The notes under the pieces are model-generated. The model ran no database searches. It worked only from the letters and a program-made list of their open reading frames with translations, and was not told the DNA's origin. This document shows, one piece after another, positions 7,997-41,796 of a DNA stretch of 47,505 bases. The stretch comes from Phascolarctobacterium sp. (GTDB lineage: Bacteria; Bacillota; Negativicutes; Acidaminococcales; Acidaminococcaceae), in assembly GCA_017452325.1 (NCBI GenBank), contig JAFTMR010000014.1, positions 1-47,505 on the forward strand. The letters are read 5' to 3'. Numbering within the stretch: the first letter of the stretch is position 1; every line of letters begins with the position of its first letter. The translations under genes were made by a program, and so were the position numbers.

Positions 7997-8090
7997 TTAT
8001 CCACATTATCCACAAGGTTATACACAGGAATTGTGGCGAAATTACGTGCTTTTCTATGAACTATCCACATTATCCACAGAGTTATGCACC
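7997..8090 (+). promoter_or_regulatory. Cluster of six DnaA-box-like 9-mers in two triplets
   Basis: All on the plus strand. TTATCCACA at 7997-8005, TTATCCACA at 8006-8014 and TTATACACA at 8018-8026 form the first triplet. CTATCCACA at 8061-8069, TTATCCACA at 8070-8078 and TTATGCACC at 8082-8090 form the second. Three are perfect matches to the DnaA-box consensus. Both triplets have start-to-start spacings of 9 and 12 nt, and the triplets are 64 nt apart. The cluster fills the intergenic space between tsaD and the ANTAR regulator gene, upstream of the latter. DnaA binding is inferred from the consensus match. Confidence 0.75.
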
Positions 8091-16158: not shown

Positions 16159-16283
16159 GCACCTAGGCAGGAACTACTTTTAGAAAAGGAAAAAGATTGT
16201 GAAACGATTGACATTACTTTGTTAAAAGGTAATAATTAGGGTAAGAAATGTATACTTAAACAATTCAGAAAGTGGTGATTTAT

Positions 16284-16835
16284 ATGATTTTTAAGTTTGA
16301 AGGCAAACAACCTAAAATCGACGAAAAAGCTTACGCTTTCACTACCTCCACCGTAATCGGTATGGTAGAGATGAAAGAATACAGCAGCGTTTGGCCCAAC
16401 GTAACTGTTCGTGGTGACGTTAACCGTATCGAAATTGGTCGCTACACCAACATCCAAGACAACAGTGTTCTGCACGTAGCAGACAAATACGCTTGTGTAG
16501 TTGGCGACTTCGTAACCGTTGGTCATAGCGCACTCTTGCATGCTTGCACCGTTGAAGACCACTGCCTTATTGGCATGCACGCAACTGTTTTGGACGGCGC
16601 AGTAGTTGGTCGCGGTTCCATCGTTGCTGCGGGCGCAGTAGTAACCAAAGGCACCATCATCCCGCCCTTCTCCTTGGTAGCAGGCATCCCTGCCAAAGTT
16701 ATCAAAACCTTGGACGAAGGTAACTTGGACAACATCCACGCTCAAGCAGTTAAGTACAAAGACCTGTGGACCAGACGTTATGGCTTGTTGCCTGATGGTG
16801 GTGGAGAAACTTATAACGGCGAACAAATCGTATAA
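16284..16835 (+). CDS. Gamma-carbonic anhydrase family protein (left-handed beta-helix)
   Basis: A 183-residue hexapeptide-repeat protein of the gamma-CA/YrdA/CaiE group. The repeats run from about residue 20 to 145 (YSSVWPNVTVRGDVNRIEIG ... VVGRGSIVAAGAVVTKG), followed by the C-terminal helix ending the family pattern IPAKVIKTL. The three expected zinc-ligand histidines are visible in SVLHVADK, TVGHSALL and the LHACT that follows, so the metal site appears intact. Whether it is an active carbonic anhydrase is unknown; many homologues are not. ATG 16284 is preceded by an AGTGGTG site. It is monocistronic, followed by one copy of the dispersed 3'-UTR repeat and a terminator. Confidence 0.9.
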   Translation: MIFKFEGKQPKIDEKAYAFTTSTVIGMVEMKEYSSVWPNVTVRGDVNRIEIGRYTNIQDNSVLHVADKYACVVGDFVTVGHSALLHACTVEDHCLIGMHATVLDGAVVGRGSIVAAGAVVTKGTIIPPFSLVAGIPAKVIKTLDEGNLDNIHAQAVKYKDLWTRRYGLLPDGGGETYNGEQIV

Positions 16836-16841
16836 CGAAAA

Positions 16842-16958
16842 TTGTATAGCCACTGTCTGACTGTGTTGGAACTTCGATTGCTTGCTCGACGTACCATTAA
16901 GTACGCCTTCGCTTCACAATCTTGTTCCGCCTTGTCATACAGCACCTCTCCAATTTTC
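16842..16958 (+). repeat. Dispersed 3'-UTR repeat element, copy A
   Basis: It begins 7 nt after the carbonic anhydrase stop codon and ends before the terminator at 16977. Read in the sense of the gene, it shares an almost continuous block with copy B (at 36.3 kb): CACTGTCTGACTGTGTTGGA, then GCTTGCTCGACGTAC, a short loop, and GTACGCCTTCGCTT. The centre is a hairpin CGTAC/GTACG (16890-16905). It has no coding potential. Confidence 0.75.
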
Positions 16959-16976
16959 TTGCTTTTTACATCAATG

Positions 16977-17541: not shown

Positions 17542-17686
17542 CTCACTCTAATAGTTGTCATGAGCAATCAAAAAGTGACGTAAAATTTTTCTGTTTTTGA
17601 AAAAAATTTTAACTAACAGCTTTTTAAAAAATTTTTTCTTGAGATTACGTCACTTTTCCCTTTCCGATGTCAACTATAAGGGTGAG
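17542..17686. repeat. 145-bp near-palindrome with 42-nt terminal inverted repeats (MITE-like)
   Basis: The left arm 17542-17583 and right arm 17645-17686 align without gaps at 32 of 42 positions. Exact blocks are CTCAC at the tips and AAAAGTGACGTAA at the inner ends. The 61-nt centre is almost pure A/T and itself partly palindromic. No target-site duplication is obvious. It makes up most of the 344-bp gene-free stretch between the phosphatase and the HipS-like gene; 17687-17831 is pyrimidine-rich with nothing recognisable. Confidence 0.65.
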
Positions 17687-19571: not shown

Positions 19572-22500
19572 TTAGCTTATAGCATATTCATCCATAACTT
19601 CGTCTAACGATTTCATATCTCTAAAATTATTTTTAAACAATGCATCCCACGCATTTAAACAAATAGTTTTAGCCTCCGCGTCATCCTCACATCTGTTCAA
19701 AATATTCATCAAACATTTTATGAAATCGTTAACTGCATTACGCAACCTATAATCTTGCTTTCCCTGCACAAGTTTTCCAGTAATTTTCTCAACAGCTTTA
19801 TAAACAAAACTTATATCATCAATATTACTCAAATAAGAAATAAAACAAGGTAACAACTTTGTTATATTATCACAACTCAATACTTCTAATATAAATTTTT
19901 TATCGGTAAGCAAATCAATTTTTTCTTTTAATACTTCTTCTGTTATAAAGACAGCATCAAGATTACAGTTTTGTATTATATGTAACAGAATTGTTTTGCT
20001 AATTCCTTTATACTTTTCAATTCCTAACATATAAATCGCTTGTCTCCAAATATGCGTAATTGCTATATCTGAATGATTGTAACCGATAATATACTCCTGT
20101 AATTCTCTGTTATTAAAATATGCTACCAAGGCACAGATAAATCCTGCTGCTTGTTCCTGTAAATCTTCTATATCCTTATCACATGCTGCTATTAGAATTT
20201 TGTTATAAAATTCTTCGTTACATTCATAATCTCTGCTTAAAAGTTGCCAAGCATTCAAAGATCCTATTGTGCGTAAATCTTTATTCACTAAATCCCTAAA
20301 GATTCGCAAAACAAAATCTTTATCAGCATCATAGTAATCAACTAAAGAGTCTACCAAAGTAAATCTAACAACAGAGTTTTCATCCTCACTCATACTTTGC
20401 AAAATCGTAGCAAATACATTTCTTAAGTCGATATGTTCATTTGCTAAAGATTCCATAGTACGTATTGCGCAACATTTTACATTATTCAATGATTTATTAT
20501 ATAAATCATATACTTTAACGGTCTCCTTTTCATTACTTTCCAAACATAGAACTTCTATAGCCTCTAAAACAAATTCTATAATATCTTGTGGCCAGTTATA
20601 ATATGCATATCTTTGTATTAATCCAAGGATTTCAATTTTAATTGACTCCTCCTCACATTGCCTAAACTTCCTAATAACATCACATAAAAGAGCTATTTCT
20701 ATTTTGGTTTCATTATTTTTAGACTGCAATGCATTTAAAACACTATTAATATATCCCATATAACAATTATCAGGAAATTCTAATGACAGCTTTGCAAATC
20801 TTTCAGGTTGCTTAAGTGCTTGAGAATGTAATGTCGCTGCAAACGTCGTGTGGTCTGCCTCAATGTAAGCATTTTCAGTTTCTTTCCATCTATGCCGTTT
20901 CATCTTACTTGCAGGTGTGCAGATAATTTTTAACCAAGTAGTATCAGATATTTTTTCAGCATACGATGCAATCGGAGACTGTACAAACTTTGCACTTCCA
21001 CCCCAATTATGACTCATATAATGTCCATCTCTTATATTAGGATTACGCAACAAAACCTGCAATAACTCCTTGGCATACTTAGATAAACGAAAATCACAAG
21101 TGCTTTCCAATAATTCTTTTTGTAAATGTCCCCAAAAAGCCCAATAAACTTTATAAGCACCTTTTTCTGTATTATGTTCTACTCTATTTTTTAAAAGTTT
21201 TCTCATTCGCTCAACATCTTCTTTCCAGAAAACAATTTTGTTTTCCAGTTCAGAGAACAAATCATTTGAACAATAAGGAGAAAATCTCTTTATAACCTTT
21301 TTACAGTTATCAAGAAAATTAGCAGTATTTCCAGTGTAATCAAAAATATTATTTGAGAAATCATTTACAAGCCAACTTACAACATCATTAGCGTAATATA
21401 TGGGAAGTTTACACAATGCGGATAAAATAAGTTCATTAGTTACCAAAGCCTCCTTGTATCTTTCATCATAAATAATCCTTAAAAACATTTCGGGACTTTT
21501 ATCTGCATATTCCTCTAGTGCCCATTTGCATATATCTACAATTTTCCTAAAAAATTCATTTCTTATGCTTTTATTTGTCCACTTAAAATAAACATTTTTA
21601 TAGGTTATTTGAGGTAATCTATAATGCAAACCTTTAGTTGCATAACAAAGTGCTGGCAACAGTTCCTCGACAATCAAATATGAATTCTCAATACTAAATT
21701 TTTTCAGCACGTCACTAGTTGGAAAATTAACATCTTTAAAATACTCACAACCATTATTCCCAACAAGAAAATTCAAATATCTAATACATCTTCTAGGAGA
21801 ATTTTTGAAAGTATCGTAAAAAACAAATCCATCATGTTCCAAAAGTTGCGGCTCATTTTCTAAAAGTTTCATCCTGAATTCGAACATTTTAGACGAATCT
21901 TTCTCCACATCGCGACAAAGACAATTCCATATAATTTTATCAGTTTCAAGATTTTTATACGCAAAAACTTCTAGTTGTTCGACAACAAAATCACCATCTT
22001 TTTGATTAATAGATTGTAACAGCCACATTTTGCTATCTTTTATGTCAACAATAGGTTCTTTTGAAAGTAAATATTTTATGCAAGTAACATTTTCATAAAA
22101 TACAACTTGCCATATATATTTTTCATAATCAGTTTGTTTACTGTATTTATAAACAAATTCCAATACCCTTTTTGATGGATTAATAATCTTAGCAATAGTT
22201 TCCCATATAGCACATTTGTAATAATACCGTATAGTCTTAGACTCTAAAACTTTCTCACACTGTTTAAGAAAAATATTATCACTTAATTCACAGAGACCTT
22301 GTAATACAACTAAAAATCTATATCTGAGATTTGGAGTTTGTTCATTTAAGACAGTATAAAATTGAGTTAAATCATTACCACGAATAATATTTTGTATAAG
22401 CTCTCTGGACAAAAAATAGTCAAGAAAACTTTGATGTACAAAAAATATTCTACCCGCATTTACATTTAACAATCCTAAAGAACATAATATCTTTATGATA

Positions 22501-24101
22501 TTTATCTTATCAATATATAAATTTTCTGGAACAGATAGTTGTCCAAGATCCCCCATTGAACAGGCAATATCATTAATCACTTTATCAACATCACTTGAGC
22601 TAATACCTTTCTTAGATAAACACAAACATATTTGTTCATACCACTTATCAAGTAACTGCTTCACATTAGTAACATCTATTACTTCTTGGCTATTGTTTAT
22701 TTTTGACCATACATAAAGATTTGACGGTATATGCAGCAATAATTTTAATCTCTTGGATAGACTGTTATATTTTTCCAGACCTATGATGTTTTTTACTTCT
22801 TCTTCAGAAAAAATATCTACCTCTATTTCTTTCCAGATAATTCTATTATTTTCATTTTTCAGAAATAACTCTTTTATACCATTATCATTTTTGTAATCAA
22901 AAGTTCTAGATACAAAAATTATTACAGTCCTCTTGCCACAACAATCATTCGTATCAGAAACTTGTTTTATCATTTTCTTGCAAACATTTAAAACTTGGTT
23001 TGCTCCTAAATTACCAGACTGTAACGCATCTAATTGATCTAATATTAATACATTAAGTTCATTCCCTGCGATTTTTTGTAGAGCTAAAATTGGTGACATC
23101 CCTAAACCTAAATTTTCTCCAAACTCATTAACGTTTAAGGTAGGTTCTACTTTATCTAATTTTATACACAGATTAGGAATACTATTCTTATCCAAATATC
23201 TTTTTAATAATTCTACGCATCCACTTTTACCACTTCCGGCTTTACCATGTAATATTATTGATTCACTTTTTTTAATGCATTTAATAACTTCTTCAACTAT
23301 GCTCCTGTGCATTAAACTATTGTTAACAGGTTGATATACAGGCCAATCTATGCTATTCAATTCCACAATTTTAGGTATAACCCTGTCAGCATCGCCTAAA
23401 TCCCTAAATCTAAATCCCTGTTTTTCAAGATATTTAGTTAATCTATTTGGCATAATCTTTACGCCATACCATCTATTGTCATTTACACAATTTTCTAATA
23501 CAACTCTGATTGTTTCTGTATTTCCATACAAACATACACCTATTTTTTCTTCAAAATCAATTCTACTGCGACAACCATCCATAACTGTCTCAAAATGACA
23601 ATTAGATAAAATATGAATCAACATTTTTAACTCATTCTGATCCTTAGGATCTAATAAAAATTTTCTTGCAACATTATTAAATGCCTTTTTTAATGACTCA
23701 TTGCTCAATTGATATTCAACATAATCATTTTCACTATGATTACGTCTAGCTCTATTACACAATTCATTTATTTCACAATAATTTATTGGTGATATAAAAT
23801 GATATTCATTCTTATCTCCAGACAGAATATGATTTTTAGCATGCTTAAAAAAATCTACTTTTTCCAAATCAGATATAGTCCATTTTAAATTATTTCCATT
23901 ACTTGCTTTACATTGATAGTATCTTTTTACACCGTCAATACCGGTAGATATAAACTCTACACCCTCACCTTCTTCTCCTAAAGGCTCAACCTCAATACTT
24001 GCAATCTTTTCATTCAATAACCTTAAAAGTTCCTTAGCTAAAAAACTATTCTCGTAACTATTACCTAATTTATCCGCACGACCACCAACTTCCAAACTCA
24101 T
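19572..24101 (-). CDS. Large STAND-type NTPase with N-terminal nuclease-like domain (Avs-like defence protein)
   Basis: About 1509 residues. The N-terminus (about 1-70) matches the PD-(D/E)xK/Cap4-like nuclease pattern: GNSYENSFLAKELLRLL, then PLGEEGEGVEFISTG, then YYQCKAS (E49 ... Q63-x-K65). A P-loop NTPase follows, with Walker A HGKAGSGKS near 286-293 and Walker B LNVLILDQLDAL near 349-360, a STAND-like sequence. A winged-helix-like segment and NTPase C-lobe run to about 570. The remaining about 900 residues look alpha-helical and HEAT-like, the expected sensor region. STAND proteins such as Avs sense phage proteins and then activate the effector domain. The subfamily cannot be assigned. 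ATG 24101 is 10 nt from AGAGG; a GTG at 24107 is an alternative. It is monocistronic and very AT-rich. Confidence 0.75.
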   Translation of the reverse strand: MSLEVGGRADKLGNSYENSFLAKELLRLLNEKIASIEVEPLGEEGEGVEFISTGIDGVKRYYQCKASNGNNLKWTISDLEKVDFFKHAKNHILSGDKNEYHFISPINYCEINELCNRARRNHSENDYVEYQLSNESLKKAFNNVARKFLLDPKDQNELKMLIHILSNCHFETVMDGCRSRIDFEEKIGVCLYGNTETIRVVLENCVNDNRWYGVKIMPNRLTKYLEKQGFRFRDLGDADRVIPKIVELNSIDWPVYQPVNNSLMHRSIVEEVIKCIKKSESIILHGKAGSGKSGCVELLKRYLDKNSIPNLCIKLDKVEPTLNVNEFGENLGLGMSPILALQKIAGNELNVLILDQLDALQSGNLGANQVLNVCKKMIKQVSDTNDCCGKRTVIIFVSRTFDYKNDNGIKELFLKNENNRIIWKEIEVDIFSEEEVKNIIGLEKYNSLSKRLKLLLHIPSNLYVWSKINNSQEVIDVTNVKQLLDKWYEQICLCLSKKGISSSDVDKVINDIACSMGDLGQLSVPENLYIDKINIIKILCSLGLLNVNAGRIFFVHQSFLDYFLSRELIQNIIRGNDLTQFYTVLNEQTPNLRYRFLVVLQGLCELSDNIFLKQCEKVLESKTIRYYYKCAIWETIAKIINPSKRVLEFVYKYSKQTDYEKYIWQVVFYENVTCIKYLLSKEPIVDIKDSKMWLLQSINQKDGDFVVEQLEVFAYKNLETDKIIWNCLCRDVEKDSSKMFEFRMKLLENEPQLLEHDGFVFYDTFKNSPRRCIRYLNFLVGNNGCEYFKDVNFPTSDVLKKFSIENSYLIVEELLPALCYATKGLHYRLPQITYKNVYFKWTNKSIRNEFFRKIVDICKWALEEYADKSPEMFLRIIYDERYKEALVTNELILSALCKLPIYYANDVVSWLVNDFSNNIFDYTGNTANFLDNCKKVIKRFSPYCSNDLFSELENKIVFWKEDVERMRKLLKNRVEHNTEKGAYKVYWAFWGHLQKELLESTCDFRLSKYAKELLQVLLRNPNIRDGHYMSHNWGGSAKFVQSPIASYAEKISDTTWLKIICTPASKMKRHRWKETENAYIEADHTTFAATLHSQALKQPERFAKLSLEFPDNCYMGYINSVLNALQSKNNETKIEIALLCDVIRKFRQCEEESIKIEILGLIQRYAYYNWPQDIIEFVLEAIEVLCLESNEKETVKVYDLYNKSLNNVKCCAIRTMESLANEHIDLRNVFATILQSMSEDENSVVRFTLVDSLVDYYDADKDFVLRIFRDLVNKDLRTIGSLNAWQLLSRDYECNEEFYNKILIAACDKDIEDLQEQAAGFICALVAYFNNRELQEYIIGYNHSDIAITHIWRQAIYMLGIEKYKGISKTILLHIIQNCNLDAVFITEEVLKEKIDLLTDKKFILEVLSCDNITKLLPCFISYLSNIDDISFVYKAVEKITGKLVQGKQDYRLRNAVNDFIKCLMNILNRCEDDAEAKTICLNAWDALFKNNFRDMKSLDEVMDEYAIS

Positions 24102-24145
24102 AGACACACATCCTCTCTGATATCCAATTATAAATTACTTTATAT

Positions 24146-33589: not shown

Positions 33590-33650
33590 ATTACTACTTT
33601 TTAATTTAAAATTATTAGAATTACCATAAGAACCAAAAACTTTAGCCAGC

Positions 33651-33714
33651 GTAGCGAACTACTATACATACGTCGGTTCAATAAGTAAATTTTTGCCAGA
33701 CACATCCACAATAC
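33651..33714 (-). repeat. Dispersed 3'-UTR repeat element, degenerate copy D
   Basis: Lies between the MFS stop codon (33715) and the terminator. On the plus strand TACTATACATACGTC (33660-33674) matches the core of copy B at 13 of 15 bases, and the outer part has a weak match to the TGTCTGGC block. Orientation relative to the gene is the same as in the better copies. Confidence 0.4.
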
Positions 33715-34938
33715 TCATAAAGACTTTTTCACTCTAGTGATGTATGTGTGCAACGACACGCTTATCAAAATTAAACCTGCACTAATAATCACAAACTTTG
33801 TCGGTAGCACATGCCCTAAGGCTCCACCCAATAGAGGTCCTACAACGCCACCAAACATTTGCGCTGATGTTACCAAGCCAAAGGCTTTTCCCCGTACAGT
33901 CTGGTCTGTAACCTCTACCAGATTAGCGTTGATATTAGGTATAGCTCCTGCAAGGAACAAGCCGTAAATAAACTGCACCGCTGCAAACTGATACACATCA
34001 TTACTAAAAAGCTGAAACAAATTAACAATACCTGCACCTAAAGTAATGAAACAGAAGGTACGCACATAACCGTAGCGTTGTCCTCGCTTACCCCAAAAGG
34101 GCGCCGCCAGAATCCCCGCTATACCAGCCAGCGAGAAAATAATTCCTGACATCTGAATTGTTGCATCATCCACTTTACCCATTAACTGACCAACATATAC
34201 TGTAATCAGAGGCTGTAAAATCATTACACATACCTGCACCAGGAAGAACATAGTCATGGTGAAGAGTAGCCCCTTATTTCTAAGTGACTCCCTCAAATCA
34301 CTGAGCAGTTCAATCTCCCTGTTCTTACGTTCTTCACTAATAGGTACATCATGTACAAAGAAGATTACCAAGGCCGTTGCTACGAGCAGGCAAACGCAGC
34401 TTACCCAGAAGGACATCCTCATTCCAAACCAGCTGCTAAGATAACCACCAATCAACGGTCCTAAAATACCACCACTGGATAGCGCTGTCTGCATTAGCCC
34501 CATGCCCCACCCCATCTTGTCTATGGGAAGTGTTGAAGAAACTAAAGACATAGAAGCAGGCACAAAGCCACTAATAATCCCTGTAAAAGCACGCACTATC
34601 AGAAGCTGATACTCATCCTGACACAAAGCAGTGAACACATAAGAAAGTACCAAGCCTAACCCTGCGCGTATGGCCATCTTACGTTGTCCCACCTTATCAG
34701 CCCACGCTCCCCAGTAAGGAGCCATAACTGCGGAACCAAGAAAGGTTATGGAATAAACCAAGCCACTCCAAAAGCTAAGATGCTCCTCGCTCACATGCAG
34801 CTCCTGCAATAAAAAGACGGGCAGGAACGGAACACACATAGTATAACTAGCTGCAGCAAAGAATACGCCAATCCAGAGTACAGCTAAATTTACCTTCCAA
34901 TTTATTTTCTTCTCACCCTGTTCATCAAACAAAGCCAC
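33715..34938 (-). CDS. MFS drug-exporter-like transporter (MdtG/DHA1 type)
   Basis: A 407-residue protein with 12 predicted transmembrane helices. Motif A between TM2 and TM3 reads GAWADKVGQRKMAIRAG; motif C in TM5 reads SGGILGPLIGGYLSSWFG, typical of antiporters; and a second motif-A-like segment (FWGKRGQRYGY) begins the C-terminal half. It most resembles multidrug exporters such as MdtG; the substrate is unknown. The start is GTG at 34938, eight bases after GGAG. An extended -10 (TGGTATAAT, near 34973-34981) probably drives it. Confidence 0.9.
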   Translation of the reverse strand: MALFDEQGEKKINWKVNLAVLWIGVFFAAASYTMCVPFLPVFLLQELHVSEEHLSFWSGLVYSITFLGSAVMAPYWGAWADKVGQRKMAIRAGLGLVLSYVFTALCQDEYQLLIVRAFTGIISGFVPASMSLVSSTLPIDKMGWGMGLMQTALSSGGILGPLIGGYLSSWFGMRMSFWVSCVCLLVATALVIFFVHDVPISEERKNREIELLSDLRESLRNKGLLFTMTMFFLVQVCVMILQPLITVYVGQLMGKVDDATIQMSGIIFSLAGIAGILAAPFWGKRGQRYGYVRTFCFITLGAGIVNLFQLFSNDVYQFAAVQFIYGLFLAGAIPNINANLVEVTDQTVRGKAFGLVTSAQMFGGVVGPLLGGALGHVLPTKFVIISAGLILISVSLHTYITRVKKSL

Positions 34939-36246: not shown

Positions 36247-36273
36247 TCATTATCATTATAAAATTTCTAGAAG

Positions 36274-36366
36274 CGCTGGAAGTCGCGAAGCTTATTAAGC
36301 GAAGGCGTACTAAACGTACGTCGAGCAAGCAATTGCAGTTCCAACACAGCCAGACAGTGCTTATGG
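36274..36366 (-). repeat. Dispersed 3'-UTR repeat element, copy B
   Basis: Begins 5 nt after the aminotransferase stop and ends before the terminator at 36207-36246. In gene sense it reads AAGCACTGTCTGGCTGTGTT, then GCTTGCTCGACGTAC, GTTTA, GTACGCCTTCGCTT, with CGCGACTTCC at the far end. It matches copy A over nearly its whole length and copy C in the core and at the far end. Confidence 0.75.
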
Positions 36367-36371
36367 AAAAA

Positions 36372-37550
36372 TTATATGCATTCTTTGATAGCTTTCGCCA
36401 TACGTTTGATGCCTTCAACAATTCTGTCGTCCGGCATATTAGAATAGTTTACGCGCATGCTACGGTCAGTTTTGCCATTGGGATAGAAAGCGTCGCCAAT
36501 TACAGCAGCAACCTTCATTTCAATGCATTTGTCGAAAACTTTACGAGCGCTTACGCCTTCGGGCATGGACAGCCACAGGAACAAGCCACCTTCTGGATGA
36601 GTCCAGGTGCAGCCAGCAGGCAGTTCTGCTTCCATGGTAGCGAGGATCAAGTCACGACGATGACGATACAGCTCTACAATTTTAGCAACGTGAGCGTCAA
36701 GGTCGTAGGCATCCATATACGCATCTGCAACGCCTTGGTCAAAATTAGAGGTGTGTAAGTCAGCACTTTGTTTGATTTTGATAAACTCGCTCAGTACATT
36801 TTTATCTGCTGCAACCCAACCAAGACGCAGGCCAGGGCAGAACACTTTGGAGAAAGTACCAAGGAACATTACCAAACCTTTAGTATCCAAGGATTTCAAG
36901 GAAGGCAGTATCTCTCCTTCAAAGCGCAGCTCGCCATAGGGATTATCTTCCAATACAGGCAGATTGTGTTTATTAACAACTTCCATAAATTTTTGACGGC
37001 GTTCCATAGACCAGGTACGACCGGTGGGATTTTGGAAGTCAGGAATTACATAAATAAATTTACAGTTGGGAGTGGTTTCCAGAATTTTGTCCAACTCTTC
37101 CGGGAGCAAGCCGCCATCATCAGTGGGAACTTCTACAAATTTAGGTTCATAAGCATTGAAAGCGTTAAGCGCGCCCAAATAAGAGGGGCTTTCGCACAGA
37201 ACAACATCACCAGGGTTTAAGAACAGCTTACCAGCAAAGTCAAGGCATTGTTGGGAGCCGGTGGTAATGAGAATTTCATCAGGGTCAACATTAGTATGAT
37301 ATTTATCTGCCATACGTTTTGCGATCTTAGCGCGCAAAGACGGACGACCTTCAGTAGTTGCATACTGCAACAATTGGCGACCTTCCTTCATAACCAAGTC
37401 ATGGGAAACCTTAGCAATTTCTTCTACAGGAAAAAGCTCCGGTGCAGGCAAACCACCAGCAAAAGAAATGATGTCTGGTTGTGCAGTCAGTTTTAAAAGC
37501 TCACGGATTTCGGACGCTTGCATACGTTCCATACGTTTTGAAAAGTTCAT
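36372..37550 (-). CDS. PLP-dependent aminotransferase (class I/II, LysN/2-aminoadipate type)
   Basis: A 392-residue fold-type I aminotransferase. It has the N-terminal FAGGLPAPELFPVEEI segment of the 2-aminoadipate/MocR-related group, LQYATTEGRPSLRAKIA, TTGSQQCLDF, YVIPDFQNPTGRTW, the DNPYGELRFEG region, and the PLP-lysine motif GTFSKVFCPGLRLGW. Its amino acid substrate is not evident from sequence; homologues act on aromatic, branched-chain or aminoadipate substrates. It is monocistronic, with a promoter spanned by an inverted repeat and copy B of the 3'-UTR element downstream. Confidence 0.94.
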   Translation of the reverse strand: MNFSKRMERMQASEIRELLKLTAQPDIISFAGGLPAPELFPVEEIAKVSHDLVMKEGRQLLQYATTEGRPSLRAKIAKRMADKYHTNVDPDEILITTGSQQCLDFAGKLFLNPGDVVLCESPSYLGALNAFNAYEPKFVEVPTDDGGLLPEELDKILETTPNCKFIYVIPDFQNPTGRTWSMERRQKFMEVVNKHNLPVLEDNPYGELRFEGEILPSLKSLDTKGLVMFLGTFSKVFCPGLRLGWVAADKNVLSEFIKIKQSADLHTSNFDQGVADAYMDAYDLDAHVAKIVELYRHRRDLILATMEAELPAGCTWTHPEGGLFLWLSMPEGVSARKVFDKCIEMKVAAVIGDAFYPNGKTDRSMRVNYSNMPDDRIVEGIKRMAKAIKECI

Positions 37551-41663: not shown

Positions 41664-41691
41664 GCATTTGTAATAGAAAATTCTTAGAAAT

Positions 41692-41790
41692 ACCGGAAGG
41701 CGCGAAGCAGTGAAATTCGTACCGCGCAGACGTACTAAACGTACGTCAAGCAAGCGAGTGAACTGCGACAAAGCATAATGGTGCTTATAA
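41692..41790 (-). repeat. Dispersed 3'-UTR repeat element, copy C
   Basis: Begins 7 nt after the yjiG-like stop codon and ends before the terminator at 41632-41663. The core is a perfect hairpin GACGTAC-TAAAC-GTACGTC (41729-41747), joined to CAAGCAAGC as in copies A and B. The outer ends (GCTTAT near the gene, GCGCGAAGC at the far side) also match copy B. Confidence 0.72.
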
Positions 41791-41796
41791 CCTGTC

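Follow-up and report, generated by a model that had tools for sequence, protein, structure and literature searches.

The window, the whole stretch of 47,505 nucleotides of Phascolarctobacterium sp. DNA that was analysed, holds three copies of a non-coding element of ~122 bp, each lying against the stop codon of an unrelated gene. The copies, their target genes, and a candidate remnant are located as follows.

16272 to 16835 (+), target gene: hexapeptide-repeat protein (gamma-carbonic-anhydrase-like), PF00132
16837 to 16959 (+), element copy: full length, R1 110.5 bits, R2 112.4 bits on the opposite strand
33607 to 33693 (-), candidate decayed remnant: 6.5 bits, E 0.26 (241-nt region searched alone), downstream of an MFS gene at 33715 to 34938 (-)
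36259 to 36373 (-), element copy on which the first-pass annotation had focused: R1 73.7 bits
36372 to 37550 (-), target gene: class I/II aminotransferase, PF00155, E 1.5e-41
41676 to 41794 (-), element copy: full length, R1 100.5 bits
41797 to 42276 (-), target gene: Gate/nucleoside-recognition domain protein (YjiG-like), PF07670

The three clear copies that the first-pass annotation had described were borne out far above chance, with E-values of 5e-26 to 2e-16 for model R1, which was built from 28 own-genome copies with 16837-16959 (+) among them. The intervals given there fall on the middle of each element, whose true length is greater than had been noted. Position and orientation within the window are as described: the left end lies +1 nt from the stop of the hexapeptide-repeat gene in the first copy and +2 nt from the stop of the Gate/YjiG-like gene in the copy at 41676-41794 (-), and it lies at -2 nt in the copy at 36259-36373 (-), where the first two bases of the element are shared with the aminotransferase stop codon (36372-36374). 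The left and right halves of this last copy resemble different subfamilies, and its arms are therefore mismatched in part. The proposed fourth, degenerate copy at 33651-33714 found no support, as the whole-window search gave no model match there up to E = 1; a decayed remnant of the element is possible at this site.

Elsewhere in the window, three TTATCCACA and one TTATACACA, which are DnaA-box-like, lie within 82 bp at 7997-8089 (+) and are flanked by an ANTAR-domain gene and tsaD, and TTATNCACA has 7 matches in the window as a whole compared with 2.6 expected. An intergenic inverted repeat at 17542-17686 has 42-bp arms that are 79% complementary and spaced 61 bp apart, and the 1511-aa ORF at 19572-24107 (-) has no Pfam match at E 1e-10.

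The host, a gut bacterium, is represented by a Phascolarctobacterium-like MAG of 1.8 Mb, 90% complete and in 119 contigs. The covariance model gave 76 matches in it, representing ~75 places, and the core shared among the window copies was recovered as a 15-nt core that occurs 51 times with at most one mismatch, the reversed control pattern occurring 0 times. When 75 copies were placed relative to genes by a home-made gene caller, none lay inside a gene, and the left neighbour, in the orientation used by the first-pass annotation, was co-directional for 58, divergent for 14, and unknown for 3. Of the 72 copies that could be tested, 51 have the left end between -13 and +8 nt of the stop of a co-directional gene, compared with 6.7% of left ends if intergenic positions and orientations were random (P ~1e-43); none of the 72 has its right end at a stop. 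While the element's own internal TAA serves as the stop codon in 11 copies, its leading A bases complete the gene's TAA in many others. To say that the element "always" sits at a stop codon was nevertheless too strong: ~71% of copies do so genome-wide, ~17% precede a divergent start or Shine-Dalgarno sequence, and the rest mostly follow the T-tract of a terminator. Most of the divergent-gene copies (14/72 face a divergent start) are found 10-24 nt from the start, immediately upstream of its Shine-Dalgarno sequence, and 6 copies lie directly after a terminator T-tract. Nor is a terminator always the next feature; within operons it is frequently an RBS. The placement was replicated at loci of other genomes, with 67/82 copies at stops and 13/17 near starts, and stop-side copies are also present in a second genus.

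The usual copies are solitary. In G034, a genome from another genus of the same family, four element-like units lie head to tail at ~125 bp spacing (L226/L232, G034:C63 72-577). At two other loci (L046 7222-7342 and L031 6405-6524), a new copy seems to have gone in at the TAA with which an older one begins on the left, so that left ends now stand in tandem.

Target composition was taken from the 12 bases before the left end and compared with 631 control gene ends over 5000 resamples. Stop-side left flanks contain 11.6% G compared with 24.1% in the controls (0/5000 resamples as low) and 54.8% pyrimidines compared with 39.1%, and at non-stop sites pyrimidines dominate the left flank nearly throughout. 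As the complement of a Shine-Dalgarno sequence and a T-tract both form pyrimidine tracts by nature, the three settings of stops, Shine-Dalgarno edges, and terminators are united by this preference. The mild pyrimidine bias alone cannot account for the strength of the stop-codon pinning. No excess of target duplications longer than 2 nt was found. TA pairs are present at the element ends 30 times compared with 12.7 expected, an excess that can be ascribed to the self-complementary stem, and TA stands at both ends in 8 of 149 copies.

The element is a single long imperfect palindrome with complementary outer arms, and its ends carry A-tract and T-tract arms. The conserved hairpin has tandem internal loops and the tip CGTAC-NNNN-GTACG. 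In an alignment of 39 divergent copies, standard pairs make up 94.9% of the cells in 40 pairs. Double changes are present in 29 of the 40 pairs (0/500 shuffles as high), and they outnumber single changes in the outer stem. The outer arm is perfectly matched within its copy in 68 of 149 copies, compared with 7.6 when right ends are shuffled. The strand originally described has nearly no wobble intermediates because its conserved mismatches are of the A-C type, and each of these reads as G-U on the complementary, bottom strand. Counted on the bottom strand over 149 copies, G-U cells number 634, compared with 74 A-C cells; most of the G-U cells sit in four columns, and elsewhere the ratio is still ~2:1. 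Similarly, the bottom strand is more stable than the top in 145/149 copies by RNA parameters (-47.5 versus -33.0 kcal/mol) and in 144/149 by DNA parameters (-23.7 versus -17.8), energies that do not discriminate RNA from single-stranded DNA. The same preference is present in 19/21 class-wide and 19/20 phylum-wide homologues, and at most places the bottom strand is antisense to the mRNA of the upstream gene. The first-pass annotation had counted copies found equally in both orientations, in 5' regions, or between divergent genes, or a lack of covariation, against its own proposal; covariation proved very strong and orientation strongly biased, and copies do also lie in 5' regions and between divergent genes.

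The relatives that were compared share 82-90% nucleotide identity, and many sites are common to them with variable presence of the element. One copy (C118:1226) occurs in the own genome only, another (C24:17513) is also in G002 and absent in G001, and a third (C66:14404) is missing from both G001 and G003. At C83, the stop codon is occupied by a copy in the own genome, G002 is empty, and G003 carries an independent copy in the opposite orientation, against the RBS of the next gene. Misassembly of MAGs could mimic single cases of presence and absence. Some "empty" sites bear a 28-nt scar, left by a deletion between the GCAC repeats that lie at the base of the hairpin. The view that short palindromes at "empty" sites represent ancestral targets was rejected, as GCAC-repeat deletions, giving AAATCGTTATAAGCACTTCTAACGATTT at independent loci, fit better. 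A different palindromic repeat (GGCGCCCCTGAAAGGGGAGCTGTCAGCGTAGCTGACTGAGGGG) takes the place of the element at L159 18690-18780 (G002:C17), a site orthologous to the stop at own C24:31159, and at L163 a sequence similar to this repeat comes after an element.

Identity reaches 93-100% for many of the elements in 53 orthologous pairs. In other pairs, the elements are 56-70% identical, like random copies, at the same site and in the same orientation, with flanks mostly 85-97% identical. Each replaced copy has its own outer arms, which match each other. Gene conversion is unlikely to swap both outermost arms because homology ends there, and independent insertion or replacement would thus be the simpler reading of divergent elements at one site. 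One pair (L136/L191) is a clear left/right chimera. The observation that one site bears different matched arms across species also led us to reject two origins for the outer arms: inverted copying of the target, and a terminator already in place whose loop holds the element. The best-conserved orthologous elements lie in intergenic DNA that is about equally conserved, and strong selection on individual copies was rejected on this ground.

When named genomes were scanned for the exact core, all matches fell in Phascolarctobacterium MAGs, the majority from the gut of deer. The repeat is present in each of the 4 genomes of the genus, with 30-77 copies per genome, and in 13 of 59 genomes at the level of the taxonomic family. 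A second model detected it in 72/380 genomes and 34/102 genera of Negativicutes, and a third in 46/398 genomes and 34/267 genera across the phylum, with a patchy distribution; copy counts from these two wider searches are lower bounds. Distant copies retain the tip CGTA-NNNN-TACGC, the CATCTnCnnnGTTG / CGCCTnGnATCTG stem, and complementary outer arms. Similar sequences may occur in other phyla too. Rfam gave no match in the window and, at the loci of far homologues, a T-box only, outside the element. Plasmids and phages gave no blastn match to the element, and the core pattern was not found in viral contigs. Literature searches of open-licence papers returned no paper with these sequences or this repeat family. 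Within Rfam and that literature, the earlier statement that no described family was recognised therefore holds.

We looked for an enzyme that could mobilise the element. No autonomous relative, with separated element ends and a gene between them, was found in the 1.4 Mb of sequence analysed for this, and the Y1 tyrosine transposase (Y1_Tnp) is absent from the own genome (G000) and from 7 of 31 other carriers. The carriers that lack each candidate enzyme are listed below.

Without Y1_Tnp: G000, G001, G003 (98% complete), G034, G035 (99%), G036, G061, G313
Without reverse transcriptase (RVT_1): G000, G001, G002 (99%), G034, G035 (99%), G308, G130, G472, G434, G577, G516
Without IS110: G000-G003, G034-G036, G130, G516

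MAGs may miss genes, and several of the enzyme-free carriers are near complete. As each enzyme is missing in some carriers, RAYT/Y1, reverse transcriptase, and IS110 are not required by all, and each was rejected as a universal mover.

Taken with the placement and the structure, these results are probably explained by a small non-autonomous mobile element with fixed polarity, a pyrimidine-tract target, and a hairpin recognised as a folded single strand. A mobile element with a strict target preference was one of the two readings first offered, and it fits the clean presence and absence, the independent insertion in one spacer, and the same-site replacement. Weighing against it are the failure to find a mobilising enzyme or autonomous relative, a pinning to stop codons stronger than the pyrimidine bias would give, and the orthologous copies with 93-100% identity, although in those cases the intergenic DNA beside them is conserved too. 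In the mechanism that we propose, the bottom strand would fold into the conserved hairpin, and the folded single strand, DNA likelier than RNA, would be recognised by a putative trans-acting recombinase or transposase. Insertion would proceed with fixed polarity and without target duplication over ~2 nt, setting the left end immediately downstream of a pyrimidine tract that is poor in G, in most cases at a stop codon. The leading A bases or the internal TAA of the element would then supply or restore the stop of the gene. We infer the single-stranded intermediate, the enzyme acting in trans, and a selfish mode of maintenance.

Integron attC sites share two properties with the element, a preferred folded bottom strand and a location right behind a stop codon. 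However, the RYYYAAC ... GTTRRRY boxes of attC ends are present in 0/149 copies on either strand, and the element is not in cassette arrays; identity with attC was therefore rejected. A broader, unlikely version of the mobile reading is that these are phylum-wide, perhaps wider, hairpins with no dedicated transposase, which a conserved host recombinase may move as folded single-stranded DNA with a built-in preference for gene 3' ends. If true, the element would be an attC-like mobile unit outside integrons, and its 3'-end preference would make insertion harmless.

The other reading first offered was a transcribed 3'-UTR RNA element, in which the top-strand transcript folds behind the stop and protects, processes, or terminates the upstream mRNA. 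Although this would suit the 51/72 copies directly behind stop codons, a top strand that still folds (~-33 kcal/mol), and terminator-like A-tract and T-tract arms, the wobble pairs lie on the opposite strand, and the retention of foldability there, in most places antisense to the upstream gene, speaks against selection for a role in the 3' UTR. In addition, ~20% of copies do not follow a co-directional gene, the own genome has copies facing divergent starts or following terminators, presence differs between species, copies are exchanged for unrelated ones, and conserved orthologous copies are hardly more conserved than nearby intergenic DNA. Such a function is thus unlikely for the family as a whole, and from the sequence comparisons mobility appears to account for the data better; a domesticated role at single loci could still apply.

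It is quite unlikely that the element is instead a DNA palindrome used by the host for protein binding, supercoiling, or chromosome organisation, with its arms kept matched by hairpin-templated repair. In-place repair would be consistent with the dominance of double changes in the outer stem, and vertical conservation at some loci with a host role, but repair does not predict that whole copies differ at orthologous sites with their arms still matched. Strand-specific wobble, conserved internal loops, and the patchy distribution also speak against it.

The known repeats closest in kind to the proposed mobile element are REP/REPIN, ERIC, and other MITE-like repeats. REPIN hairpins have a similar total size and strand-specific folding, and like the element they are extragenic and near upstream 3' ends. 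REP sequences are found at <20 bp from the 3' ends of ORFs and are able to provide the stop codon (PMC3733652), so the position of the element is not new in kind. That the element is a repeat of the REP/REPIN kind, with a RAYT (Y1 tyrosine transposase) that moves it by working on single-stranded hairpins, is nonetheless very unlikely; 8 carriers lack Y1_Tnp, and for the genus this reading is mostly refuted. Compared with REPINs, which consist of two inverted REPs, the element is a 122-bp single hairpin with conserved internal loops, occurs in Bacillota, has left-end polarity, and needs no RAYT; of the two tags that mark the REP families beside their palindromes, GTAG is within 8 nt of an end in only 1/149 copies and CGTC in 0/149. 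A retro-element, whose bottom-strand RNA would be turned into DNA where a pyrimidine-A site has been nicked, as in target-primed reverse transcription, would fit the excess of G-U over A-C on one strand and a position just 3' of a pyrimidine tract, resembling primed insertion at T-rich/A sites, but it is highly improbable given 11 carriers without RVT_1, no tail or target duplication found, and no promoter shown.

ERIC / RU-1 (127 bp, enterobacteria) resembles the element in size, long hairpin, and multi-copy intergenic location (PMC2229807), whereas the element differs in sequence, has polarity towards the stop codon, and is without consistent TA termini or target duplication. YPAL / RU-2 (168 bp, Yersinia) is likewise palindromic, with filled and empty sites in related species (PMC2229807); however, it has 3-26 bp target duplications and dyad targets, while the element has no duplication >2 nt and a pyrimidine-tract target. 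MITEs of the ERIC/RUP/Correia type are also small and non-coding with inverted-repeat ends, and they duplicate their target, usually a TA; a TA-duplicating MITE was rejected on the duplication and TA counts given above. What appears to be novel is the family itself, its phylum-wide structure, its polarity, and its lack of the usual enzymes.

If the mobile reading is right, the element would belong to a family of bacterial mini-elements that is ancient, widespread, and apparently without a name. Its polarity would be unusual, with one end delivered to stop codons, Shine-Dalgarno edges, or terminators. The carriers without RAYT, reverse transcriptase, and IS110 raise the question of what moves the element and how the end of a gene is found. 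Moreover, a hairpin behind a stop codon may be mistaken for a regulatory RNA, and the strand that carries the G-U pairs provides a simple test.
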